Source: Planctomycetota bacterium
Lineage (GTDB): Bacteria > Planctomycetota > Phycisphaerae > WQYP01
DNA length: 40,200 bases
Assembly: GCA_021805985.1 (NCBI GenBank)
Contig: JAJZDN010000035.1
Span: 1-40,200 of the forward strand
Direction: 5' to 3'
Position numbers and translations under genes: made by a program. Under the pieces are notes generated by a model, which saw nothing but the letters and a program-made list of their open reading frames with translations, was not told the DNA's origin and did no database searches. Below, piece after piece: positions 2,954-35,655 of the stretch. Positions within the stretch are counted from its first letter, which is position 1; each line of letters begins with the position of its first letter.

Positions 2954-3673
2954 ATGGCTAACGCTGCCGTGATGGCTATCGCCCATCGGGGAGCATCCGC
3001 TGAAGCCCCAGAAAACACCGTGGCCGCTTTCGATGAGGCAATTCGACTCGGCGCTCGAGCTGTGGAGATGGATGTGCGTCTTTGCAAAGACGGCATTCCC
3101 GTTATTCTGCATGATGCGACGGTGGATAGAACCACCAGCGGCACCGGGGCAGTGGCTGATCTCACGAGACTCGACTTACTGAGACTCGATGCCGGGTCTT
3201 GGAAGCATCCGCGTTTTGCCGGCACACGCATTCCGCTTTTAACCGAAGCGTTGCAGGCCGTCAGTGATGACGCCATCGCGGTTTTAGAGATTAAAGAGCC
3301 GATCGATCCGAAAATGCTGCGGCGAATCCTTGATGAATTCGCCCCGCGTGACCGGTGGATCATGCTAAGCTTTGAAGACGATATTCTGAAAGCTATCCGC
3401 AAAGAAATGCCACATGCGGCCTTGGGCCTGCTAAGTGACGGATGGCAGTCAGATTTACCCCAGCGGTGTGCTACGCTGGAAGCGGGTATCTTGGCGTTGA
3501 ATACTGCGATTTTGAGTATCGAACGAATCAAGTCCGCCCGTGAAAAGCATCTACGGGTATGGACTTATACTCCTAACGACGCCGGTTCTGTGGCTGCGTG
3601 TGCGGCCATCGGCGTGGAAGGAATTATTACGGATCATCCTGAATTGATCCGTCCGGCGGCTAATCGGAGTTGA
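2954..3673 (+). CDS. Glycerophosphodiester phosphodiesterase family protein
   Basis: This enzyme family hydrolyses glycerophosphodiesters to an alcohol and glycerol-3-phosphate, in phospholipid turnover. The sequence shows the GDPD hallmarks in order: AHRGASAEAPENTVAAF near the N-terminus (catalytic HR, and the E and N of the metal site), then EMDVRLCKDGIPVILHDATVDRTT with the metal-binding E-x-D and the second catalytic H. Later come VLEIKEP, and VWTYTPNDAG with GIITDHPEL near the C-terminus. At 239 residues it is the usual size of the cytoplasmic UgpQ-type enzymes and has no signal peptide. A longer frame could start at a TTG at 2927, but the ATG at 2954 gives the canonical N-terminus and lies just behind a good promoter. 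Its stop lies just upstream of the rho start, so the two may be cotranscribed. Confidence 0.9.
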   Translation: MANAAVMAIAHRGASAEAPENTVAAFDEAIRLGARAVEMDVRLCKDGIPVILHDATVDRTTSGTGAVADLTRLDLLRLDAGSWKHPRFAGTRIPLLTEALQAVSDDAIAVLEIKEPIDPKMLRRILDEFAPRDRWIMLSFEDDILKAIRKEMPHAALGLLSDGWQSDLPQRCATLEAGILALNTAILSIERIKSAREKHLRVWTYTPNDAGSVAACAAIGVEGIITDHPELIRPAANRS

Positions 3674-3678
3674 CTGAA

Positions 3679-4848
3679 GTGTCAGAAAATGTGGTAGTGG
3701 AAAAAGTTGAAAAGCAAGTGACCGGCATGCTGGAGATCACCGACAAAGGCGTCGGGTTTATCCGCTCGGAACAGCGAAAATTTAAACCCGTGCCTGCGGA
3801 TCCAACGGTTTCGGCCGCCCTTATTGAAGAAGCCCACTTGCGCCCTGGCCTGACCGTCACGGTTAATACCAAGCCTGCGGCGCGCGGACCGGCCCCCCAG
3901 GTGACTGAAATCATCAGCGTCATGGATCAACCGATGGAAAAGTATTGGGCCTTGCCCACGTTCGGGGATATGACGGTCATTGATCCGCGTGAACGCATCC
4001 GTCTGGAAACGCCCGGCGGCCCGGACTCCATGCGCATCATGGATATGCTCACCCCCATTGGCCGCGGCCAGCGCGGACTGATTGTCGCCCCTCCAAAAAC
4101 CGGAAAAACCACGCTGCTAAAGCAAATCGCACATGCCGTACTGACCAACCATCCGGACATGAAGGTTTTTATCCTTTTGGTAGACGAACGCCCTGAAGAA
4201 GTCACCGACTTCCGCCGCACACTTAATGCCGAAGTCTGGGCCAGCAATAATGATGAAGATGTGCTTTCTCACGTTCGCACCAGCCGCTTAGTTACTGAAC
4301 GCGCCCGTCGGATGGTGGAGTTCGGCCATCACGTGATTATCATTCTGGATTCGCTGACGCGGCTGGGAAGAGCTTTTAACCATTTTGTAGGCAGTTCCGG
4401 ACGCACCATGTCCGGCGGCGTGGATTCGGGGGCCTTGTTGGAGCCACGGTCTATTTTTGGTGCCGCGCGGAATATTGAGCATGGCGGATCATTAAGCATC
4501 ATCGCCTCCGCGTTGATTGAAACCGGCAGCCGAATGGATGATTTAATATTTCAGGAATTCAAGGGCACCGGCAACATGGAACTGGTGCTTTCCCGCCGGC
4601 TTGCGGAACGTCGAATCTGGCCTGCCATTGATTTGCCGGCCTCTGGAACCCGCAAAGAAGAATTGCTGCTGGGGCCGGAAGCCACGCGCAAAGTCGCGAT
4701 GGTCCGTCGCGAAATGCTTCAACGCGATCCCGCGCAGGGCATGGATCAGCTCATCCGCATGATGCGACGCTACAAAACCAATAGTGAATTCCTTGCCGCC
4801 TTTACGCCCGAGCGCCAAGGCTCCCACTCGGGCCGATCCCGCAATTAG
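3679..4848 (+). CDS. rho: Transcription termination factor Rho
   Basis: Rho is a hexameric RNA-dependent ATPase that ends transcription. The protein carries the OB-fold RNA-binding region (ITDKGVGFIRS, residues 20-30) and the RecA-like motor. The motor has Walker A APPKTGKTTLL (about 137-147), the DERPEEVTDFRR motif (about 169-180), Walker B IIILDSLTRLGRAFN, and the Q/R-loop region with GALLEPRSIFGAARN. I choose GTG 3679 because GGAG at 3666-3669 lies 9 nt ahead. An in-frame TTG at 3670 that overlaps the upstream TGA is the alternative. At about 390 residues it is shorter than E. coli Rho (419) and seems to lack the N-terminal helical Rho_N domain, starting almost directly at the OB fold. Function is secure from the motor domain. 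Confidence 0.95.
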   Translation: MSENVVVEKVEKQVTGMLEITDKGVGFIRSEQRKFKPVPADPTVSAALIEEAHLRPGLTVTVNTKPAARGPAPQVTEIISVMDQPMEKYWALPTFGDMTVIDPRERIRLETPGGPDSMRIMDMLTPIGRGQRGLIVAPPKTGKTTLLKQIAHAVLTNHPDMKVFILLVDERPEEVTDFRRTLNAEVWASNNDEDVLSHVRTSRLVTERARRMVEFGHHVIIILDSLTRLGRAFNHFVGSSGRTMSGGVDSGALLEPRSIFGAARNIEHGGSLSIIASALIETGSRMDDLIFQEFKGTGNMELVLSRRLAERRIWPAIDLPASGTRKEELLLGPEATRKVAMVRREMLQRDPAQGMDQLIRMMRRYKTNSEFLAAFTPERQGSHSGRSRN

Positions 4849-6501: not shown

Positions 6502-6560
6502 GTAGCGCTTTGCCCGATGCGGACAAAAGTGAGATTGTACCAAAAGAGAGGTATCGTAAG

Positions 6561-7802
6561 ATGACCAAGAAGCACCTGTTTACCAGTGAGTCCGTTAGCA
6601 TGGGCCACCCGGACAAAGTGGCGGATCAAGTATCCGATGCAGTACTGGATTCCCTGTTGGAAGCTGATCCGTTAGCGCGCGTCGCCTGTGAGACCTTGGT
6701 AACCACCGGCTTGGTGGTGTTGGCCGGCGAGGTTACGGTGCATAATCAGGCCGCCATCGAAGCGCTTAATCGCGCTGAAGATACGGCCCGTGAAGCGATT
6801 CGGGAAATTGGTTACGACGATCCGCGTACTGGCTTTGATTACCGCAGTTGCGCCGTATTACGAGCCTTGCACAGCCAATCTGCGGATATCTCCCGCGGTG
6901 TCACCGCGTCGGGTGCCCATGAGCAAGGGGCTGGAGATCAGGGCATTATGTTTGGCTTTGCGTGCAATGAAACAAAATCATTGATGCCATTGCCGATTTA
7001 TCTTAGCCACCGATTGGTAGAGCAACAGGCTAAACTGCGGCGCGAGGGAGCCATCCAGTGGCTGCGGCCCGACGCCAAGAGTCAGGTCACCGTCGAATAC
7101 CATGATGACAAACCGCATCGCATTCATACCGTGGTACTTTCCACCCAGCATACCGAAGAAGCAGTTGATGCCAAGACCGACAGCTTTTCCGATGCCGCGC
7201 GTCATGAAATTATTGAAAAAATCATCAAACCCGTCATCATGGACGAGTGTCCGCAATTGTGGAACAACCAGATGATTTTCCACATCAACCCCACGGGCAA
7301 ATTTCTCATCGGCGGCCCGCATGGCGATTCCGGCCTCACGGGCCGCAAGATTATTGTTGATACATACGGCGGTCGCGGCTGCCATGGCGGCGGTGCGTTC
7401 TCCGGCAAGGATCCATCAAAGGTAGACCGCTCGGCGAGCTACATGGCCCGCTATATTGCTAAGAATGTGGTCGCAGCGGGCCTGGCCACTGCTTGTGAGG
7501 TACAGTTGGGCTATGCAATTGGTGTTGCCGAACCCGTTAGCGTGCTGGTGGATACCGAAGGCACTTCGACCATTGATGAACAGATCATCAGCGACTTGGT
7601 GCGCAAAGTGTTCCCGCTTAAACCGCAAAGTATTATCAAGCATCTGAATTTACTCCGTCCCATTTACCGTGAAACCGCCCGTCACGGCCACTTTGGCCGC
7701 GAATTGCCGGAGTTTACCTGGGAAGCCACGGACAAGGCCGACGAATTAGCCCGTCTTGCGGGCGTCAAGACCAGCCGGTCCGCTGCGGCTTCTATGGTGT
7801 GA
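6561..7802 (+). CDS. metK: S-adenosylmethionine synthase (methionine adenosyltransferase)
   Basis: MetK makes S-adenosylmethionine from ATP and methionine in the cytosol. The 413-residue product starts [19 protein letters not shown], with the catalytic GHPDK. It carries the ATP-binding [10 protein letters not shown] hexapeptide region (about residue 125) and [18 protein letters not shown] (about residue 280), which holds the P-loop-like motif. Other conserved pieces are [21 protein letters not shown] and the C-terminal HGHFGRE. An in-frame ORF extends upstream to 6354, but GAGAGG at 6546-6551 and the conserved N-terminus favour the ATG at 6561. The gene seems monocistronic, with its own promoter and a gap of 121 nt to the next gene. 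Length is slightly above the roughly 385 of E. coli, mainly from a longer C-terminal tail. Confidence 0.97.
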
Positions 7803-7923
7803 CAGCCCGCACCGTGATGGCTCCCACCGTTTGCAACACGGGGCGGATAAGGTTTATAGTAATGCTGTGGCTCGATATTCGTGTCGAACCCATCATCGGC
7901 GTTATACTAAGACCGGAGTTTTC

Positions 7924-9939
7924 ATGGCGGACGCGTTGCGATGGGGTATTCTTGGCACCGGGACGATTGCCGCCAAGTTTGCAAAAGAGCTTTTAGCCTC
8001 GAAGACGGGTCAGATCGTTGCCGTCGGCAGTCGTAGCGCGGAGGCGTCGCAGCGCTTCGGCCGGGATTTTCTCCATGAAACGCCGATCAACCGGCACGCT
8101 ACATATGACGCATTACTGGCGGATCCCTCCGTTGACGTGGTTTACATTTCCACACCCCATCCGTTCCATGCACAGTGGAGCATTCGGGCGGCAATGGCGG
8201 GCAAGCACATATTGTGCGAAAAACCGCTGGCATTAAATTTTGCCGACGCCATGACCGTGGTGGAGGCCGCGCGGGCAAATCACGTATTTCTCATGGAAGC
8301 TTTTATGTATCGCTGTCACCCGGTCGTGGAGCGACTGATTCAATTGCTGCGCGAAGGCGTGATCCATGACATGCGCATGATTCAGGCCAATTTTGGCTTT
8401 CATTGTGCTGTGAACTATGAGCATCGACTGCTAAACAACGCCCTTGGCGGCGGCGGAATACTGGATGTCGGATGCTATCCGGTTTCACTGGCGCGTCTTA
8501 TAGCCGGCGTGGCGGCCGGGAAGGAATTTCTGAACCCGGTGCATGTTGCGGCCTCCGGGATTGTTGGAGAAAAAAGCCGGGTTGATGAAATCGCCTCTCT
8601 GATCCTTACATTCCCTAATAATGTTGTGGCCAGTATCAGCACAGCCTTACAGTGCACGCTTAACAATGACATCCATATTTATGGCACCGGCGGCAGTATC
8701 TACATCCCGTGGCTTTGGATACCGCAGCCCAAAGGCAACAAAATTTTTATTCGCCGCCACGGTAAACCGCAGGAAGAAATCACCGTGGATGCTCCGGCTG
8801 GAGTCTACACGCTGGAAGCGGATGTGGTGGCCGCCGCTATTGAAAAGCGCCAACTTGAGGCCGCCTGGCCGGCCATGCGCTGGGATGATACGCTGGAGAA
8901 CATGAAAACGCTGGATCAATGGCGGCGAATGGCAGGCGTCACCTATGATGATGAAAAGCCTGAAAATCGCCTTGCCCCGCTGCACGGAGGGGCGCTAACT
9001 ATCCATGAACCCGCTGCGATGGAATATGGCCGGGTTCCGGGGCTGGAAAAGCCCGTGTCCCGGCTGATTTTTGGAGTTGATAAAATCAGCCTTCATGATT
9101 TTCCAATGGCCCAGGCCATGCTGGATGATTATTTTCAACGCGGCGGCAACACGTTTGATTCTGCTCATATTTACTCCATGGGTGTTTGCGAAAAGGCCTT
9201 GGGACGCTGGGTTGCCAATCGCGGAATTCGTGAACAAATCGTCATCATAGGCAAGGGCGCGCACACCCCGGACTGTAATCCCACAGCTCTTACCCGCCAA
9301 CTTATGGAAAGCCTGGATCGCCTTAAAACAAATTATGTCGACATTTACATGATGCACCGCGACGACCCCGCCGTTCCGGTAGAGGAATTCGTGGATGTCC
9401 TTAATGAGCATAAACGTGCTGGACGTATTGGCGCCATTGGGGCATCAAACTGGAGCATCCCACGCATTGAGGCGTTTAATTTCAGTGCCCGTTCACGGGG
9501 GCTGTCGGGCTTTTGCGCCATTAGCAATAATTTCTGCCTGGCTCGCATGATTCGTCCTCCCTGGCCGGGGTGTATGTCAAGCTCGGATCTGGAGTGGCGG
9601 GACTTCCTGAAAAGCAATGACATCATTCTCATGCCTTGGAGCAGCCAGGCACGCGGATTTTTTACCGATCGCGCGGCACCGGAAAAAACAGCGGACGCGG
9701 AGCTGGCGCGGTGCTGGTATTCACCGGATAACTTCCGCCGCCAGGAAAGAGCCTGCGAATTGGCACGTAAACTGGGCGTAACCCCCATCGTCATCGCCTT
9801 GGCCTATGTGCTATGCCAGGCGTTCCCTACTTTCCCGATGATTGGCCCAGCCACCATTGCCGAGACGCGTGAAAGCTGTGAGGCCTTGAAAATAAAACTC
9901 ACCACGGAGCAACTTCACTGGTTGAATTTGGAAAGATAA
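7924..9939 (+). CDS. Fusion of Gfo/Idh/MocA-type dehydrogenase and aldo-keto reductase
   Basis: One uninterrupted 671-residue frame joins two NAD(P)-dependent oxidoreductases. Residues about 1-340 are a Gfo/Idh/MocA protein, with the Rossmann motif GILGTGTIA (8-16), the CEKP motif (98-101) and a beta-sheet domain containing GGGGILDVGCYPVSLAR. Residues about 375-671 are an aldo-keto reductase, with FDSAHIY (D412, Y417), K444 and H478 forming the AKR tetrad, then IGAIGASNWS and a C-terminal MIGPAT cofactor loop. Both halves keep their catalytic residues, so both are probably active on sugars or polyols. The substrate cannot be deduced. GGAG at 7915-7918 supports ATG 7924, and TATACT at 7903-7908 suggests a very short leader. 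Joining two redox halves would allow cofactor recycling or substrate passing; that is inference. Confidence 0.9.
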   Translation: MADALRWGILGTGTIAAKFAKELLASKTGQIVAVGSRSAEASQRFGRDFLHETPINRHATYDALLADPSVDVVYISTPHPFHAQWSIRAAMAGKHILCEKPLALNFADAMTVVEAARANHVFLMEAFMYRCHPVVERLIQLLREGVIHDMRMIQANFGFHCAVNYEHRLLNNALGGGGILDVGCYPVSLARLIAGVAAGKEFLNPVHVAASGIVGEKSRVDEIASLILTFPNNVVASISTALQCTLNNDIHIYGTGGSIYIPWLWIPQPKGNKIFIRRHGKPQEEITVDAPAGVYTLEADVVAAAIEKRQLEAAWPAMRWDDTLENMKTLDQWRRMAGVTYDDEKPENRLAPLHGGALTIHEPAAMEYGRVPGLEKPVSRLIFGVDKISLHDFPMAQAMLDDYFQRGGNTFDSAHIYSMGVCEKALGRWVANRGIREQIVIIGKGAHTPDCNPTALTRQLMESLDRLKTNYVDIYMMHRDDPAVPVEEFVDVLNEHKRAGRIGAIGASNWSIPRIEAFNFSARSRGLSGFCAISNNFCLARMIRPPWPGCMSSSDLEWRDFLKSNDIILMPWSSQARGFFTDRAAPEKTADAELARCWYSPDNFRRQERACELARKLGVTPIVIALAYVLCQAFPTFPMIGPATIAETRESCEALKIKLTTEQLHWLNLER

Positions 9940-9985: not shown

Positions 9986-10591
9986 ATGATTGTACTAATT
10001 GATAATTATGATTCCTTCACCTACAACCTCGTGCAGCGGCTGGGGGAAATTGACGCCACGCGCGTCATAGAAGTGGTGCGCAATGACAAAATTTCCATTG
10101 ACCAAATCGAAAAGTGGCAGCCGGAAAAAATTATTATCTCTCCCGGCCCATGCACGCCACGTGAAGCGGGCATCAGCAATGATGTGCTGAAGCACTTTGG
10201 CCCCCGGCTGCCTGTCCTGGGTGTTTGTCTGGGCCATCAGTGCATCGGTCACGCATTTGGGGCCGTGGTGGAACGAAACTATCGGCTTATGCACGGCAAG
10301 ACTTCGCCGATCTACCATCAGAATCAAGGCCTGTTTGCCGGGCTTTCAAATCCCTTTGACGCCGCCCGCTATCACAGTCTGGTCATCCGTCCTGGTACGT
10401 TACCCGATGACTTTACGGTGACCGCCTGGACAGAAGAAAAAGAGATCATGGGCGTGCAGCACAAACGCTGGCCGTTGTACGGCGTGCAATTCCATCCGGA
10501 AAGTTTTCTCACGCCGGAAGGTTATACGCTGTTGGCTAATTTTCTTAAAATCCCATCCACCATCGTCTCAAGCCCCGCCAGCGTGGCCTGA
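9986..10591 (+). CDS. Glutamine amidotransferase subunit of anthranilate / aminodeoxychorismate synthase
   Basis: The 201-residue class I glutaminase starts MIVLIDNYDSFTYNL, the hallmark of TrpG/PabA. It has the nucleophile loop GVCLGHQ (C81), the oxyanion motif SPGPCTP (52-58), and the H170/E172 pair in VQFHPESF. It releases ammonia from glutamine for the chorismate-using partner TrpE or PabB, making anthranilate (tryptophan) or aminodeoxychorismate (folate). The motif set does not separate TrpG from PabA, and many bacteria use one protein for both. No trpE, pabB or other tryptophan gene lies nearby, so the pathway is open. It converges with the tolC-like gene. Confidence 0.92.
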   Translation: MIVLIDNYDSFTYNLVQRLGEIDATRVIEVVRNDKISIDQIEKWQPEKIIISPGPCTPREAGISNDVLKHFGPRLPVLGVCLGHQCIGHAFGAVVERNYRLMHGKTSPIYHQNQGLFAGLSNPFDAARYHSLVIRPGTLPDDFTVTAWTEEKEIMGVQHKRWPLYGVQFHPESFLTPEGYTLLANFLKIPSTIVSSPASVA

Positions 10592-10651: not shown

Positions 10652-12433
10652 TCAATGAAACACACCGTCGGGCCAGCGCCGCAGCCAGGATGGACCAATG
10701 GGTTTGACGGCCACAGCGCCGGGTGCCCGGATGTGGCAGCGCTCCAGCAGAGAGCCTTCCTGCAAATATAACGTGCTAAGAGCATCAAGATAGGCGACAT
10801 TGGCCTGAGCCTGCGCCAAGCGTGCGGAAAGCAGGTTTGATTGCGCCAGCGATACCAAAATAGCAGTGCTTTCACCCACTTTAAATTCGCCCTGGGTGGC
10901 GCGTAATGTTTCCGCTTGCGCTTCAGTTGTGGCTGCGGTTGCAGTAATCTGCTGGTTGTCGGTCTGGGCCTGAATGTATGCGGTGCGAACGCTTAGTTCC
11001 ACGCTGCGAACCGTATTGGCCAGCGCGGCCTCTTCCTGATCGCGACTTAGAACCGCGCTTTGATAATTCGCGGTGGGAGTGCGATTAAAAATCGGATAAT
11101 TGAACGACAGGCCTCCGACAAGCTGATAGGGTGACCCGTTAAGATTTTCACTTGCCGGACCAAAAGACTCGGCGTAGCCGGTTTTTCCAAAGGTTATAAA
11201 CATGTTCAGCACCGGCAGCAGACCGTTGCGGGTTTGAATCACCGATAAATCTCCCTGTTCGATCTGCAAACGGGTCTGATTGAGAACCGGACTCATTTTC
11301 AATGCCAGTTCTGTATGCTCCTTCAGCGGTGCGGTTGGTCCCCCGGGCATATAGGGCAACGTGGTAAGCTGCAGATGATCATGCCAGAAAGGACGATCCG
11401 TCGGTGCCACCAGACTCAACAAATTAAGCCGGGCGATTTTCATGGCACCGATCGCGCTGACCAATTGTTCACGTGTTACGGCGGTCTGGGCCACGGCAGA
11501 CGCGAACTGCGCCGGCGAAGTGCGGCCTACGTGGATAAGTTCCTGGGTTTGAGCTTCCTGTTGTTTTGCAACGCTCAAAGCGGTTTTCAAAATGTGCACA
11601 TTCTGTTGTGCCAGTACATACGCCCAGTAGGCTTGGATAATATCATCGGTAATGGTCAGGGCCTCACCGCGCAGCTGATAGTCTGATATTTTCCTACCGA
11701 TCCTTGCACTTTCAATTCCCGCCAGGTTGGCCTGCAGATTGCCGCCCTGCAAGAGTGCCTGCGTTACAGTTATTGAGCCATTGACCGTTGTAGATTGACC
11801 GCCGCCATTCTCACTGTCGTTGAGTCCGGAATTCATGGAGGTAGAAATAGATGTGCCGGTGGGCAGTTTTTCACTCAGGCCGACATTGGCGTTTCCGGAA
11901 TCAGTGGTGCCAAAATGCTGGCTGCCGGGGATATACCCGCCGCTGGCAGTAACATAGCCGCCGCTGGTAGGCACACGATTTTTAGAGGCCTGAACACCGG
12001 CTGTAACCGTCGGATCAAACGCGCCGCGCTGGGCCACAATTTGTTCCTCGGAAAGTGCGGGATTATATCTTTGCACCAGTAACGTGGGGTTATTTTTTAA
12101 GCCAATTACCAATGCGTCGGCCAGTGACAGCTTGATAAGTTTTCCGCTGCTGGCAAAATGGGCGATCGGCTGGTTCGTGGGTTGTGCTTCGCCCGGCGGC
12201 AAAACGGCGTGCAGCTCTGTTACAGATGTCCGCGTGGCTGCACCGGATTCAATAGCCTGCTGATGGGTGATCGCGGCGTGCTGGTAGTTTTCAAAGCCCC
12301 CGGAATCAATACTGGCGCAACCGCACAAACTTGTTATCACGCCAAGCGCTGCCGCCGCACATACGGACCGCTTGACTCGTGAATCATGGAGAAGGCGCTT
12401 AGCGTTTCGGACCGGAGAAAACCGTTTATTCAT
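10652..12433 (-). CDS. TolC-family outer membrane efflux lipoprotein
   Basis: The 593-residue protein starts with a basic region and a hydrophobic stretch ending LCGC, a lipobox, so it is probably a lipidated outer membrane factor. Two repeats of long helical OEP domains follow. Helical sequences such as RGEALTITDDIIQAYWAYVL and RSVELSVRTAYIQAQTD are typical of the periplasmic helical barrel, and the barrel strands are glycine, serine and threonine rich. It should form the trimeric exit channel of the pump encoded just upstream. The ATG at 12433 overlaps the end of the macB-like gene by 8 nt, indicating translational coupling. A longer in-frame upstream extension (to 12610) lies wholly inside that gene and is rejected. 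It is the last gene of a four-gene operon. Confidence 0.9.
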   Translation of the reverse strand: MNKRFSPVRNAKRLLHDSRVKRSVCAAAALGVITSLCGCASIDSGGFENYQHAAITHQQAIESGAATRTSVTELHAVLPPGEAQPTNQPIAHFASSGKLIKLSLADALVIGLKNNPTLLVQRYNPALSEEQIVAQRGAFDPTVTAGVQASKNRVPTSGGYVTASGGYIPGSQHFGTTDSGNANVGLSEKLPTGTSISTSMNSGLNDSENGGGQSTTVNGSITVTQALLQGGNLQANLAGIESARIGRKISDYQLRGEALTITDDIIQAYWAYVLAQQNVHILKTALSVAKQQEAQTQELIHVGRTSPAQFASAVAQTAVTREQLVSAIGAMKIARLNLLSLVAPTDRPFWHDHLQLTTLPYMPGGPTAPLKEHTELALKMSPVLNQTRLQIEQGDLSVIQTRNGLLPVLNMFITFGKTGYAESFGPASENLNGSPYQLVGGLSFNYPIFNRTPTANYQSAVLSRDQEEAALANTVRSVELSVRTAYIQAQTDNQQITATAATTEAQAETLRATQGEFKVGESTAILVSLAQSNLLSARLAQAQANVAYLDALSTLYLQEGSLLERCHIRAPGAVAVKPIGPSWLRRWPDGVFH

Positions 12434-13631
12434 ATCGGAGAGCCTCAATGGGATTAAGCCCGGCGGCACGTCGGGCGGGGTAATAGCCGAAGAAAATACC
12501 AATCGCGGCGGAAATGGACAGCGCAAGAATGACCATGTGCGGTTCAACCTGTCCGGAAAAATTCCGGAACTTGACGAAATGGGCCGCCACCACGCCCACA
12601 ACCACACCAATAAGTCCGCCCAACAAGCTCACCAGCACTGATTCAATTAGAAACTGCCGGAGAATATCACGGCGTCTGGCACCGATAGCTTTACGAATTC
12701 CAATTTCCCGCGTGCGTTCGGTAACAGTCACCAGCATAATATTCATAATGCCGATTCCGCCGACCAGAAGCGAAATCCCCGCTACCGATCCCAGGAACAT
12801 GGTAAACGCTCCACCGATATTATTGGCCATTTGAATGACCTGCAATTGATTGGAAATCCAAAAGTCATCTTCATCGCCCTGGATCAGCGAATGTCGAATG
12901 CGGAGAATCTGTTCGGCTTTATTCTGCACGGGCGTAAGGTCTACGGCATGGTCCACCTGCATGTCGATATGATTTAACGCTACCGCCCGGCCCATGAGTT
13001 TGGTCATAGCGGTGCTGTAGGGCATCAGGACCTGATTGTCCGGATCAAACCAGCCGTGACGGCCTTTGGGCACCAATACACCGATAACCTGGAATCGCTC
13101 CGTGCTGATGGTAATCGTATGGCCCAGCGGGTCTTGTGATCCGAACAGGCGCGTCGCCGTTTCCGGCCCAATGACGGCCACAGAGGCCCGGTCACGGGCA
13201 TCAAAATCGTTGAACATGTGGCCGCTCTGCACCTGAAAGTCATGGATGATAATATAGGTTGACGCGCATCCAACAATATTGCAGTACGTTTCATTGGTGC
13301 CCCATTTTACGGGATCCCCCGAAGTTACCACGGGCGAAACGTATTTCACGCCCGGAATCGATAGCATAGCGTGGGCGTCGCCAAGCGTCAGCGGCTCGGC
13401 AGAACCGTTGAGCACCGGAGGCATTTTGGGATTGTGCGGAAAGATAGTAATGGTATTTTTTCCCATACGGGAAACCCAACCGAGAATGCGTGATTTGGCA
13501 CCATTGCCCAGCGCCAGCATCGCGATGACCGCCGCTACACCGATAATCATACCCAGCATGGTCAATATGGCTCGCAGCTTATTGGCCAGCATGCTGCGTA
13601 AGGCAATTTTAATTGTTGTCCAGAAAAGCAT
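12426..13631 (-). CDS. MacB-like ABC transporter permease (FtsX fold)
   Basis: The 401-residue product has one N-terminal transmembrane helix (near residues 20-40, ending VIAMLALGNGAKSRI), a large periplasmic MacB-PCD domain and three C-terminal helices. These include GSVAGISLLVGGIGIMNIML, followed by the VTERTREIGIRKAIGARRRDIL coupling loop, which is diagnostic of the FtsX/MacB family. Unlike E. coli MacB it has no attached ATPase; that subunit is encoded separately at 15073-15804. GAGAGG precedes ATG 13631. It would act with the adaptor and the TolC-like channel to export small molecules or lipoprotein-like cargo; the substrate is unknown. Confidence 0.93.
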   Translation of the reverse strand: MLFWTTIKIALRSMLANKLRAILTMLGMIIGVAAVIAMLALGNGAKSRILGWVSRMGKNTITIFPHNPKMPPVLNGSAEPLTLGDAHAMLSIPGVKYVSPVVTSGDPVKWGTNETYCNIVGCASTYIIIHDFQVQSGHMFNDFDARDRASVAVIGPETATRLFGSQDPLGHTITISTERFQVIGVLVPKGRHGWFDPDNQVLMPYSTAMTKLMGRAVALNHIDMQVDHAVDLTPVQNKAEQILRIRHSLIQGDEDDFWISNQLQVIQMANNIGGAFTMFLGSVAGISLLVGGIGIMNIMLVTVTERTREIGIRKAIGARRRDILRQFLIESVLVSLLGGLIGVVVGVVAAHFVKFRNFSGQVEPHMVILALSISAAIGIFFGYYPARRAAGLNPIEALRYE

Positions 13632-13648
13632 GGTTAACCTCTCAAAAA

Positions 13649-14992
13649 TCAGTGGGGGTGCGGCGTCCACATGCTCGATGCCACGCCTAGATGAATCAAC
13701 ACTTTCTGCCCGGCCTTTAGCCCGTGTAGCACCTGCCAATCCAGATCATTACGTTGCCCGAGCGTGACGGGCTTAAATATCTGCTTCCCATCCGGCAGTA
13801 CGACCGTTACGTTATCTTCGTTATTTTGAATTACCACAGCCTGTAATGGAATGTAGACCACATTGGGCAGTTTATCAGCGAAGACATCCACATTGGCGGT
13901 CATGCCTGGTTTGAGCAAATCCTTTTGCGAACCTAAAACTTCAATTTTTGCCTGAAAGGTGACAACATTGCTGGTAGAGCCGCTGGTGCTGCTGGCATTT
14001 TGATCTTGAATGGACTCCGGAGCAATCAGTGCTACGCGGCCAGGAAATACGACCCCTGGTGCACCAGCGGCGGTAATTTGCACTTTATCCCCGATTTTCA
14101 CATGATTGATATCACTTTCATTAACCGTCGTGTTGATATAAATATGGGATGTATCCACCAGGGTCATGACGGTTGTTCCACCGCCGACATTATTGGTGGC
14201 GGACGCAATAATTTGCCCCTGCTGTACATCCACATTGGCGACGTAACCGGTAAACGGTGCCTTCACCTTGCAGTACCGCAGATTCGTATTGGCCTGATCC
14301 AGATTGGCTTGCGATTTTTTAACCGCGACTTTATCCAGATCCACATTAAGTTTCTGCAACTTGACCTGCAGCGCCTGCTGTTTGAGCTGACTGATCTGCA
14401 CTTCTGCAAGGCGCTGGGCCTGCTCATCTCTTACCAGCGTGGTGTAATCCGTATCGTAAGTCTGTTGTGCGGCAAGATTTTCTTTTAATAATGTAGCGTC
14501 GCGCTGCACATTCAACTTGTCATTTTTAACTTGAGCTCTTGCTGAAAGCAAATTTGCTTCGTCGGTTTGACGCGTGGTAATCAGGCTTTGTTCGGCAATC
14601 TGATAACTTAGTTCAGCCGTGTTCAATGTCAGTTTGGCCTGCTCAAGATCCTGCTGAGCAATGGTGACCGCCTGCAGTTCCAATGTCGGATCAACCGTCA
14701 GAATCACCTGCCCCTTCTGAACCAAATCTCCGATTTGAATCTGTTCATCAGGGTGGCTGGCACTTAGCGGCAGGCTGGTAATTTTTCCCCCTGCCTGGCA
14801 TTTGATATCTACAGTTCTGTTGGCCAGCACATTACCAGTGGCGTACACATGTACGGTTAAGGTACCTTTTTTGACTACCGCTGTACGCACTTTTTGTGCT
14901 ACTGGTGCGCCCGTGGCGTGGTAATGCTGGTACGCGGCCGCGCCGATAACCACGACTGCGATAACTCCGATGAGTATTAAACCTTTTTTCAT
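13649..14992 (-). CDS. Periplasmic adaptor (MacA/HlyD membrane fusion protein)
   Basis: The 447-residue adaptor has an N-terminal membrane anchor (LILIGVIAVVVIGAAAYQHY), a lipoyl half-motif, and a long alpha-hairpin rich in Q, L, A and K. The hairpin spans roughly residues 110-235 and includes VKLQKLNVDLDKVAVKKSQA. A second lipoyl half follows (VKAPFTGYVANVDVQQGQI), then beta-barrel and membrane-proximal domains ending near the C-terminus. This is the MacA branch that pairs with MacB-type permeases. The hairpin is long, as needed to contact a TolC-like channel. The stop lies 17 nt before the permease ATG, and the gene follows the ATPase by 80 nt. The tail of about 30 residues after the last domain is not conserved in my memory of the family. 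Confidence 0.93.
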   Translation of the reverse strand: MKKGLILIGVIAVVVIGAAAYQHYHATGAPVAQKVRTAVVKKGTLTVHVYATGNVLANRTVDIKCQAGGKITSLPLSASHPDEQIQIGDLVQKGQVILTVDPTLELQAVTIAQQDLEQAKLTLNTAELSYQIAEQSLITTRQTDEANLLSARAQVKNDKLNVQRDATLLKENLAAQQTYDTDYTTLVRDEQAQRLAEVQISQLKQQALQVKLQKLNVDLDKVAVKKSQANLDQANTNLRYCKVKAPFTGYVANVDVQQGQIIASATNNVGGGTTVMTLVDTSHIYINTTVNESDINHVKIGDKVQITAAGAPGVVFPGRVALIAPESIQDQNASSTSGSTSNVVTFQAKIEVLGSQKDLLKPGMTANVDVFADKLPNVVYIPLQAVVIQNNEDNVTVVLPDGKQIFKPVTLGQRNDLDWQVLHGLKAGQKVLIHLGVASSMWTPHPH

Positions 14993-33106: not shown

Positions 33107-33844
33107 ATGGTAAGGGCACCTGAATTTACGGTTATTCTACCGGCGGCGGGAAATAGTACGCGGTTTGCCGCGGGGGATAAATTATTGGTGGATGTTGCCG
33201 GACTGACGGTTTTGCAACGGGCGGTACGGCTGTTTACGCAGCGGGCGGATGTGGCAGCGATTATTGTGGCTACCGGTGAAGACCGCAGAGATCTCTACCG
33301 GGAACATTTGCAAAGCGTTTTATATGGTAAGCCGCTGCATGTTTTATCCGGCGGTTCAGAGCGGTGGGAAAGTGTTTATAAAGCATTATCCAGTCGAAGG
33401 GTAGAGACACCTTATGTTGCGGTGCATGATGCCGCCCGGCCAATAACTCCGGTGGAAGTTATTGATGGGGCATTTGCCGGGGCGGTTTTGCACGGCGCCG
33501 CGTTGCCGGTGCTGGCGGAACCCGCGACGCTCAAACGCATGGGGCCGGATGGCATGATTATGCAAACGGTGGATCGCGCCGGGCTGTTCCAGGCACAAAC
33601 GCCGCAGTGCTTTCGCACGGAACTGCTGCGGCGGAGTTTTGAGGAATTAATTCAGGCTGATCGCATCCGGCATGTCACAGATGATGCGCAAATTATTGAA
33701 TTAACCGGAGGTGTAGTTGCCGGCACGCGCGGGGATGCATTAAATATAAAAGTGACTACCGCCGGTGATGCTCGATTATGCGCAGCTATTGGGGCAGGCA
33801 TTGAAAATGCAGCGTTGCTCGGTAATGGGAGCAGACGGTTATGA
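33107..33844 (+). CDS. ispD: 2-C-methyl-D-erythritol 4-phosphate cytidylyltransferase
   Basis: IspD joins CTP and methylerythritol phosphate in the MEP isoprenoid pathway. The 245-residue product has the nucleotide-binding ILPAAGNSTRF near the N-terminus, SGGSERWESVYKAL, VAVHDAARPITP, QTPQCFRTELL, TDDAQIIE and GDALNIKVTT, all family landmarks. The start is uncertain: ATG 33107 gives the canonical N-terminus but follows a G-run directly without spacing, with GATACT 6 nt before that run. ATG 33068 is an in-frame alternative adding 13 residues. The stop overlaps the polX ATG (ATGA). It pairs with the polyprenyl synthase at 21866-22789 in the same route. Confidence 0.93.
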   Translation: MVRAPEFTVILPAAGNSTRFAAGDKLLVDVAGLTVLQRAVRLFTQRADVAAIIVATGEDRRDLYREHLQSVLYGKPLHVLSGGSERWESVYKALSSRRVETPYVAVHDAARPITPVEVIDGAFAGAVLHGAALPVLAEPATLKRMGPDGMIMQTVDRAGLFQAQTPQCFRTELLRRSFEELIQADRIRHVTDDAQIIELTGGVVAGTRGDALNIKVTTAGDARLCAAIGAGIENAALLGNGSRRL

Positions 33845-35655
33845 GTAGAAATCAGGACCTTGCCGAATTGTTTAACCGCGCTGCGGACGTGATGGCGTTG
33901 CTGGAGGAAAACTCATTTCGTGTGCTGGGAACGCGCAAAGTTGCGCGGATCATTGAAGATTTGCCGGAAGATGTGAAATTGTTGGATACGCAGGGGCGGT
34001 TGGAGCACCTACCCGGCATTGGCAAAAGCACGGTCGAAAAGATTCACGAATTTTTACGCACGGGGCATATTTCCGAATTTGAAGAACTCACCGGGCGCGT
34101 GCCAGCCGGTGTGCTGGAGATGCTGGCGATTTCATCGGTTGGGGTGAAAACAGCGCATCAGTTGTGGAAAGAGGCGGGAATCACATCGGTTGCAGATTTG
34201 AAAAAGCATCTGGTTGAAGGCACGATGCCGAAGCTCAAAGGCTTTGGAGAAAAAAAACAGCTTAAAATACGCCAGAACATGGAATTTATGGAAGAAGCGG
34301 GCAAGCGTATTGGCATAGGCTGGGCGCTGCCGCTGGCGGAAAGTTATTGCGGCACGATCGCCAAGGTAACGGGGGTTTCGCAGGTGCAATATTGCGGAAG
34401 CCTGCGGCGTGGAAAAGAAAGTGTCGGAGATATTGACATTCTGGTGTGTGCTGAAGCCAGCGCCGCGCCGGCGATAACCCAGGCGGTGCTGGCGCATGAA
34501 CAGACGCAGCAGACAATTGGAGCGGGCGATACAAAAATCAGCATTCGAACCAAGGCAGGATTGCAGATTGATTTCAGAATTGTAGCACAACAGCATTGGG
34601 GCGCAGCGCTGCAATATTTCACCGGGTCTAAAGAGCATAATGTGCGCGTGCGGGAAATAGCCGTGAAGCGCGGACTGAAACTTAATGAATGGGGACTTTT
34701 TAAGGGCGAAGAATCTGTGGCGGGAGAAAATGAGCAGGGAATTTATACCACGCTGGAACTGGCGTGGCTCCCACCGGAAATGCGGGAAGATCGGGGCGAA
34801 ATTGAGCTAGCCCAACAGATGTATAAGCGAAGTCAGGGCGAGAGCATTGAAGTAAAAGACCCGCGGTTGGAATATCTTGGGAAGAAGATTCCAGCGGTTT
34901 GGCCGGTGCTGGAAATAGCCGATATTCGCGGCGACATGCATTCCCACACCACTGCCAGTGACGGCCATTGCAGCATTGACGATATGATTGCCGAGGCCAA
35001 GCGGCGGGGTTATGAATATTTCGCCATTACCGATCACAGCAAATCGCAAGTCCAGGCCAACGGCCTGCGTGTGGACCGGTTGATGGAACATTGCAAAGCC
35101 ATTCGCGCAGCGGCGGCCAAAGTAAAAGGAATCACGGTGCTGGCGGGCAGTGAGGTAGATATTCTGGCTGACGGTTCATTAGATTATCCTGATGAGGTTC
35201 TGCAGGAACTGGATTGGGTGGTGGCGTCGCCCCATTCGGCCTTAAGTCAGGAAAGTGATGCAGCCACCGCCCGTCTGATTCGCGCGGCAGCAAATCCGCT
35301 GGTGGATGTTCTCGGGCACCCAACCGGGCGGCTGGTCGGTGGCCGGCGGGGGTTGGAACCGGATATGAAGGCGGTGGTGATGGCAGCGGCCCGCAGCGGC
35401 GTAGCCTTGGAAATAAATTCCCATGATCTGCGGATGGACCTGCGGGATATTCACGCCAGACTGGCGGTGGAGCTGGGCGTGCCATTATGTATTAACACCG
35501 ATGCGCATCAACGCGAGGATATGGATAAAATAATCTATGGTATTCTAACCGCGCGGCGGGCCTGGGCGAGGGCAGAAAATGTGATCAATACCTGGCCCTG
35601 GGAAAAAATTCATCAACGGCGAGAAAGCCGGCGTAATGGCAGCTTTGAGGGATAA
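33841..35655 (+). CDS. polX: DNA polymerase X family protein with PHP domain (PolX)
   Basis: The 604-residue protein combines an N-terminal pol-beta-like region with a C-terminal PHP nuclease. Helix-hairpin-helix motifs LPGIGKSTVEKI (about 60) and ISSVGVKTAHQLW (about 98) bind DNA. The polymerase site is CGSLRRGKESVGDIDILV with catalytic aspartates, and the third is in QIDFRIV. The PHP part (about 360-600) has DMHSHTTASDG, ITDHS, GSEVDI, SPHS, GHPTGR and NTDAH, which bind metal. Bacterial PolX fills gaps and has 3'-5' exonuclease and AP-endonuclease activity in base excision repair. ATG 33841 overlaps the ispD stop. Confidence 0.95.
   Translation: MSRNQDLAELFNRAADVMALLEENSFRVLGTRKVARIIEDLPEDVKLLDTQGRLEHLPGIGKSTVEKIHEFLRTGHISEFEELTGRVPAGVLEMLAISSVGVKTAHQLWKEAGITSVADLKKHLVEGTMPKLKGFGEKKQLKIRQNMEFMEEAGKRIGIGWALPLAESYCGTIAKVTGVSQVQYCGSLRRGKESVGDIDILVCAEASAAPAITQAVLAHEQTQQTIGAGDTKISIRTKAGLQIDFRIVAQQHWGAALQYFTGSKEHNVRVREIAVKRGLKLNEWGLFKGEESVAGENEQGIYTTLELAWLPPEMREDRGEIELAQQMYKRSQGESIEVKDPRLEYLGKKIPAVWPVLEIADIRGDMHSHTTASDGHCSIDDMIAEAKRRGYEYFAITDHSKSQVQANGLRVDRLMEHCKAIRAAAAKVKGITVLAGSEVDILADGSLDYPDEVLQELDWVVASPHSALSQESDAATARLIRAAANPLVDVLGHPTGRLVGGRRGLEPDMKAVVMAAARSGVALEINSHDLRMDLRDIHARLAVELGVPLCINTDAHQREDMDKIIYGILTARRAWARAENVINTWPWEKIHQRRESRRNGSFEG

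Follow-up and report, generated by a model that had tools for sequence, protein, structure and literature searches.

A conserved single-chain fusion of a Gfo/Idh/MocA dehydrogenase with an aldo-keto reductase, a putative carbohydrate oxidoreductase of Planctomycetota and other bacteria

The window, by which we mean the whole stretch of 40,200 nucleotides of planctomycetotal DNA that was analysed, carries on its forward strand a single reading frame, free of internal stops, in which a Gfo/Idh/MocA-type dehydrogenase is followed by an aldo-keto reductase (AKR). The fusion gene, its parts and its immediate neighbours are as follows (coordinates are those of the window):

6558..7802, + strand: metK (S-adenosylmethionine synthetase), upstream neighbour (Pfam; start codon chosen by eye)
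7915..7918, + strand: GGAG, likely ribosome-binding site, 5 nt 5' of the ATG (sequence reading)
7924..9939, + strand: Gfo/Idh/MocA - aldo-keto reductase fusion gene, 671 aa plus stop
7936..8700, + strand: Gfo/Idh/MocA half, Pfam extent, residues 5-259 (Pfam, conservation)
8929..9021, + strand: linker, residues 336-366 (aligned fusions; model pLDDT)
9064..9915, + strand: aldo-keto reductase half, residues 381-664, with D412, Y417, K444 and H478 (Pfam, conservation)
9986..10591, + strand: class-I glutamine amidotransferase (trpG/pabA-like), downstream at 46 nt (Pfam)

Both domains are ordinary members of their families. In Pfam searches, GFO_IDH_MocA (PF01408) matched residues 5-126 (1.8e-23; 83.9 bits against a cut-off of 24), GFO_IDH_MocA_C3 matched residues 137-259 (4.3e-15, above its cut-off) and Aldo_ket_red (PF00248) matched residues 381-664 (3.8e-50; 171.1 bits against a cut-off of 24), the reductase half covering positions 2-283 of the 291 in that profile. 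The dehydrogenase half as a whole extends beyond its Pfam match to about residue 335, and consists of a Rossmann domain bearing the EKP motif followed by a C-terminal domain bearing D181 and Y185. None of 16 NCBIfam matches reached its own cut-off; the inositol 2-dehydrogenase (IolG) equivalog TIGR04380 scored 75.5 bits against a cut-off of 355, and the D-xylose 1-dehydrogenase Gfo6 equivalog NF041392 scored 87.3 bits against 350. The open frame extends upstream as far as a TTG at 7756, but a start there was rejected: in the same-genus loci L002-L004 the frame extends no more than four codons upstream of the ATG. Given this and the GGAG at 7915-7918, the ATG at 7924 is, on sequence reading, the better start. 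The protein is taken to be cytoplasmic, since no signal peptide is apparent at its N-terminus (MADALRWG, judged by eye).

The first-pass annotation of this DNA had described two complete nicotinamide oxidoreductases in one chain, and had left room for a missed stop or a frameshift between them. Orthologues exclude the latter, and the joining frame is genuine: of 136 loci fetched (L001-L136, a partly redundant set in which 14 are second copies of the same contig), 130 encode both halves in one frame, or 46/49, 78/80 and 6/7 by locus set, the exceptions being L047, L048, L049, L073, L095 and L135. Because so many loci have a single frame, an origin by chance, sequencing error or misassembly was rejected. 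A full-length single-frame protein was present in six of seven same-genus relatives, the seventh, a 67% complete genome, being without it; the same-genus locus L003 shares 92% identity with the query.

The fusion is widely distributed. Among 392 genomes sampled evenly across the phylum, 26 (the window's own included) encode a full-length, stop-free fusion, and in one further genome a contig edge truncates it. When named genomes were scanned with two peptide patterns, at least 597 stretches matched one or the other, and at least 572 of these code for a protein related to one half or both; the 80 best were retained, and all 80 align from residue 18 or earlier to residue 667 or later. By record title, which for MAGs may mislead through misbinning, the fusion loci include ones from Planctomycetota, Opitutae and other Verrucomicrobia, Lentisphaerae, Chloroflexi, Armatimonadetes and Gammaproteobacteria, with strains of Kribbella, Actinopolymorpha, Streptomyces, Inquilinus, Mesorhizobium and Geminisphaera, so titled; the phyla named in titles include Planctomycetota, Verrucomicrobiota, Chloroflexota, Actinomycetota and Proteobacteria. 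In a plasmid collection, 193 records matched at least 80% of the query at E <= 1e-100, comprising 122 from Rhizobium, 65 from Sinorhizobium and 6 others.

Databases name the protein for one domain, for instance "aldo/keto reductase" or "Gfo/Idh/MocA family oxidoreductase", and such labelling by one half explains how a widespread two-enzyme protein could go unnoticed. A search of the open-access literature (subscription papers lay mostly outside it, and absence there is not proof) found no publication that describes or characterises the fusion; the fusion treated in PMC2064935 is a different one, of a Gfo-type dehydrogenase with an aminotransferase. Among the best 60 of 135 matched solved chains, in none did the best stretch cover both halves. 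As far as we found, it is the combination of the two domains that is uncharacterised.

The residues expected of each family are present in both halves: an EKP lysine motif with C-terminal Asp and Tyr (E99, K100, P101, D181, Y185) for Gfo/Idh/MocA, and the Asp-Tyr-Lys-His tetrad (D412, Y417, K444, H478) for aldo-keto reductases. C98, E99, K100, P101 and the four tetrad residues stand exactly where the first-pass annotation had placed them, and its description of two complete enzymes is borne out by the Pfam domains and by alignments of 46 and 72 sequences. Among 46 aligned Planctomycetota fusions, the window included, E99, K100, P101, D181 and Y185 are invariant in all 45 that cover these positions; D412, Y417, H478, S508 and N509 are kept in 46/46, K444 is kept in 45/46 (Q in L007), and conservation reaches 93% or more in 166 columns. 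In the alignment of 72 sequences spanning several phyla, with a mean column identity of 56%, E99, K100, P101, D181, Y185, D412 and H478 are invariant, and Y417 and K444 are conserved at 90% or more without being invariant.

Selection was gauged by comparison with six same-genus orthologues, for which dN/dS was 0.066-0.102 in the dehydrogenase half and 0.043-0.091 in the reductase half. At these values both halves are under purifying selection and neither domain is decaying. The linker gave 0.112-0.207, the highest of the three regions in 6/6 comparisons; it is 31 aa long in 30 of the 46 aligned fusions, within a range of 28-45.

An AlphaFold2 model built from a 72-sequence alignment had a mean pLDDT of 96.3 and a pTM of 0.94. 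The linker is predicted to be ordered (pLDDT ~94-97), and the reductase half shows alternating strands and helices. Loosely joined domains usually give a lower pTM, so the two halves and the linker are predicted to form one compact body in a fixed arrangement; a high pTM is a statement of model confidence and not proof of that arrangement. All 50 Foldseek matches listed were to the Gfo half, headed by dimeric dihydrodiol dehydrogenase and KijD10; a streptococcal oxidoreductase that is uncharacterised and aldose-aldose oxidoreductase were also among the best. Sequence comparison places the second half closest to DepB, MtmW and an aryl-alcohol-dehydrogenase-like protein, with IolS next.

Dimeric dihydrodiol dehydrogenase (2o48; Foldseek rank 1, 27% identity) shares the fold of the N-terminal half, carries the Lys, Asp and Tyr of its site, and has an Arg aligned with residue 37; we take the fungal NADP+ D-xylose dehydrogenase to belong to its group. 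Unlike the fusion, both dihydrodiol dehydrogenase and the NADP+ D-xylose dehydrogenase (PMC2228372) are single-domain enzymes with no aldo-keto reductase half. KijD10, a sugar 3-ketoreductase (3rc1; Foldseek rank 2), is 26% identical to the N-terminal half, with which its Lys-Asp-Tyr residues and an Arg at residue 37 align, and its structure was solved with NADP and a TDP ligand. It is a nucleotide-sugar enzyme and, unlike the fusion, stands alone. The glucose-fructose (1ofg) and aldose-aldose (5a02) oxidoreductases have a related N-terminal fold and run both half-reactions in one active site, whereas the fusion has two complete active sites from two superfamilies. Precedent for paired products in the Gfo family comes from the aldose-aldose enzyme, which makes xylonate and xylitol together (PMC4628093). 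The solved proteins closest in sequence to the C-terminal half include DepB (8hwn), MtmW (6ovq) and IolS (1pyf), all of which align only with that half. DepB acts on the mycotoxin deoxynivalenol.

A pairing of oxidation and reduction is also known from levoglucosan catabolism. As described in PMC7676230, LgdA and LgdC resemble what is proposed for the fusion in pairing nicotinamide-dependent oxidation with reduction of a 3-keto sugar, and genes for a sugar ABC transporter lie near theirs; levoglucosan use is driven by the addition of LgdC, which the authors suggest regenerates NAD+. Unlike the fusion, LgdA and LgdC are separate proteins, and two further enzymes act between them. LgdC is annotated there as Gfo/Idh/MocA, and the term aldo-keto reductase has 0 occurrences.

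The two halves also occur as adjacent genes, an arrangement that the first-pass annotation had proposed to look for. Adjacent, same-strand halves were found in 11 Planctomycetota genomes (L137-L147, in a search that was not exhaustive) and on a plasmid of Paenibacillus cellulosilyticus (L135). In one of these genomes the pair lies within a same-strand, sugar-catabolism-like run (L137, 196-7124) that opens with a 6-phosphogluconate dehydrogenase gene (Pfam); the intervening genes resemble, by eye, a short-chain dehydrogenase and a HAD protein.

One tree was computed for each half, with 131 sequences in each and 115 fusion loci among them. The 115 fusions form one clade in the reductase-half tree with a support of 1.0, and one clade in the dehydrogenase-half tree with a support of only 0.50. 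L073 and L095, in which a stop lies between the halves, fall inside the fusion clade in both trees, and 12 other split pairs fall outside it; a lone half, L148, whose contig ends 199 bases past the gene, lies inside the clade in the dehydrogenase tree. Distances in the two trees agree (r 0.85, n=129; the highest of 500 permutations was 0.27), as is expected for fused genes; the split pairs are the informative part and are few (r 0.76, n=14, two of them within the clade). Because the 115 fusions group together in both trees, the data suggest one ancient fusion of an adjacent gene pair, and the simplest history would be a single fusion followed by a few later splits (or MAG errors). At the two in-clade split loci, both from MAGs (L073, 8001-10022; L095, 3489-5462), the intervening stop represents either secondary fission or an assembly error.

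Within the genus, metK lies upstream of the fusion in L001-L007, and the trpG-like gene adjoins it in L001-L005, none being seen in the flanks of L006 and L007. A functional link to either gene was set aside: the arrangement holds within the genus, but outside the genus the neighbours are others, and metK and the trpG-like gene are probably not functionally linked to the fusion. At loci from Planctomycetota, Verrucomicrobiota and other groups for which longer flanks were available, neighbours vary from genome to genome. Neighbour genes were called by codon usage; tight neighbours numbered 40 upstream and 37 downstream, of which 28 and 26 were scanned after split halves and near-duplicates had been omitted. 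Conserved Planctomycetota neighbours gave no lead to a substrate, most families among the first 25 of each list being single, and no nucleotide-sugar gene was recognised beside the fusion among the scanned neighbours (again the first 25 families per list). The 54 scanned neighbours include ABC transporter parts, three putative cyclases and two xylose-isomerase-like barrels, as well as one family-1 glycosidase and one arabinofuranosidase in tight apparent operons.

Elsewhere in the window are a gene for a Rho-type transcription termination factor with RNA-binding and ATPase domains (3670-4848, + strand; 392 aa from a putative TTG start) and one for a PolX-type DNA polymerase with polymerase beta and PHP domains (33841-35655, + strand). 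An outer-membrane efflux protein gene (10652-12610, - strand) and an HlyD-type membrane-fusion protein gene (13649-14992) share a strand, and an ORF at 12426-13739 sits between them.

Outside the Planctomycetota, a recurrent type of neighbour was found. A CUT1-like binding protein or permease gene lies within four genes and on the same strand in 16 of 115 fusion loci; since 45 of the 115 have a flank of only ~1.5 kb, the fair figure is 16 of the 70 loci with longer flanks. The same 45 are among the 99 loci at which no such importer gene was seen within that distance and strand. Importer-type genes made up 50/302 of the near same-strand genes in the 70 loci, as against 2/157 of far same-strand, 3/189 of near opposite-strand (all three in L092 and L102) and 1/136 of far opposite-strand genes in the same loci; they are thus far commoner near the fusion and on its strand than further off or on the opposite strand. 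When seeds came from the annotated Rhizobium etli operon alone, 15/70 loci were linked; the importer genes of L136, three and four genes away, were found only with seeds from other fusion loci. The 16 loci, which include five from Mesorhizobium, three from Inquilinus, two from Kribbella and two from Rhizobium, are all from Alphaproteobacteria or Actinomycetota, and as they are related to one another the independent cases are few.

The gene order at these loci is compact. In R. etli p42b, R. leguminosarum WSM2304 and Phyllobacterium it runs helix-turn-helix regulator, binding protein, permease, permease, UgpC, fusion, the regulator being of AraC type in R. etli (Pfam), where the fusion protein is WP_011427608.1. 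The same binding protein-permease-permease-UgpC set precedes the fusion in Sinorhizobium meliloti 2011 (Pfam); the regulator there belongs to the ROK family according to the annotation of strain RCAM1750. In Kribbella and Inquilinus a binding protein and two permeases lie directly 5' of the fusion. Linkage to sugar-type ABC importers is thereby seen in two bacterial groups; the within-locus control strengthens this link and not the redox coupling considered below.

We tentatively propose, at close to but short of an even chance, that the fusion is a conserved two-domain cytoplasmic oxidoreductase, NADP(H)-linked and acting on carbohydrates, that oxidises and reduces within one chain. The N-terminal domain would be an enzyme of the dihydrodiol-dehydrogenase/sugar-ketoreductase type with a Lys-Asp-Tyr site (K100, D181, Y185); the C-terminal domain is a complete aldo-keto reductase (D412, Y417, K444, H478). 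One site may oxidise a sugar-type hydroxyl to a ketone or lactone and the other reduce a carbonyl, the halves being held in a fixed arrangement. For the first half, NADP(H) is suggested by the Arg at residue 37 and the Lys-Asp-Tyr residues, both aligned in relatives, and by the solution of KijD10 with NADP; NADPH use is common among AKRs, and both domains probably use NADP(H). If both halves use one cofactor, with one oxidising and the other reducing, the cofactor would be recycled between them and the net reaction would be redox-neutral. Such a reaction could convert a sugar into an isomer or epimer by way of a keto intermediate, or it could pair the oxidation of one sugar with the reduction of a second. 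We infer the coupling, the substrate class and the cofactor; that a cofactor is shared, or an intermediate passed, between the two sites, as the first-pass annotation had suggested, is plausible.

A narrower form of this proposal, which we consider rather unlikely, is a self-contained redox epimerase or isomerase that would take a sugar through a keto intermediate to another stereoisomer or isomer, with NADP(H) or the intermediate passed between sites. The rhizobial sets, consisting of regulator, importer and fusion, would fit a converter that needs no further private enzyme, and an importer plus a single protein would then make up a complete entry route into central metabolism.

It is also a serious possibility, which we would place well below even, that each domain acts on its own substrate, within one pathway, in a reaction independent of the other, and that the two were joined only to secure equal amounts, with neither cofactor exchange nor channelling. 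Stand-alone relatives exist for each half, the linker is the least constrained region, and outside the fusion clade 12 gene pairs have stayed split, all of which would suit such an arrangement; yet in the model the two halves and the linker form a single packed body, and the fusion occurs across several phyla with only two split copies (L073, L095) in its clade. That catalysis in the cell falls to one domain alone, with the other serving as an NADP(H)-sensing or scaffolding domain, seems improbable. Some AKR and Gfo-fold proteins are non-catalytic (Kv beta, for instance, is a channel subunit), Kv beta is among the AKR matches, and one fusion, L007, has lost the AKR lysine, but the catalytic residues of both sites hardly vary, and strong purifying selection acts on each half.

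Little credence is given to a non-carbohydrate substrate, such as dihydrodiols or aromatic or other carbonyls, with the fusion acting as a detoxification enzyme. Among solved proteins, the N-terminal half is closest to a dihydrodiol dehydrogenase and the reductase half to DepB, and tight neighbours are mostly one-off genes without a link to sugars; against these points, the recurring type of neighbour is a sugar-type ABC importer, and the xylose-isomerase-like barrels, glycosidase and arabinofuranosidase occur in tight apparent operons.

That the two genes occur both fused and side by side strongly hints at a shared pathway for a Gfo-type dehydrogenase and an aldo-keto reductase. Should the sites of the proposed carbohydrate oxidoreductase share a cofactor, the protein would amount to a natural converter of sugars with two sites and no net redox change, of use in making rare sugars. 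The importer-linked copies on rhizobial plasmids offer a growth-based route to the substrate; a literature search by guessed locus tags found no induction data for the S. meliloti fusion.

Two S. meliloti strains differ at this locus. On pSymA of strain 2011 (L132, 4789-8942), a 4154-base block encoding a sugar-type binding protein, permeases and ATPase (Pfam) ends 40 bases before the fusion. Strain RCAM1750 (L133, at 8942/8943) lacks exactly that block and keeps the fusion and both flanks at ~99% identity, so that the two strains form a natural presence/absence pair for the importer.
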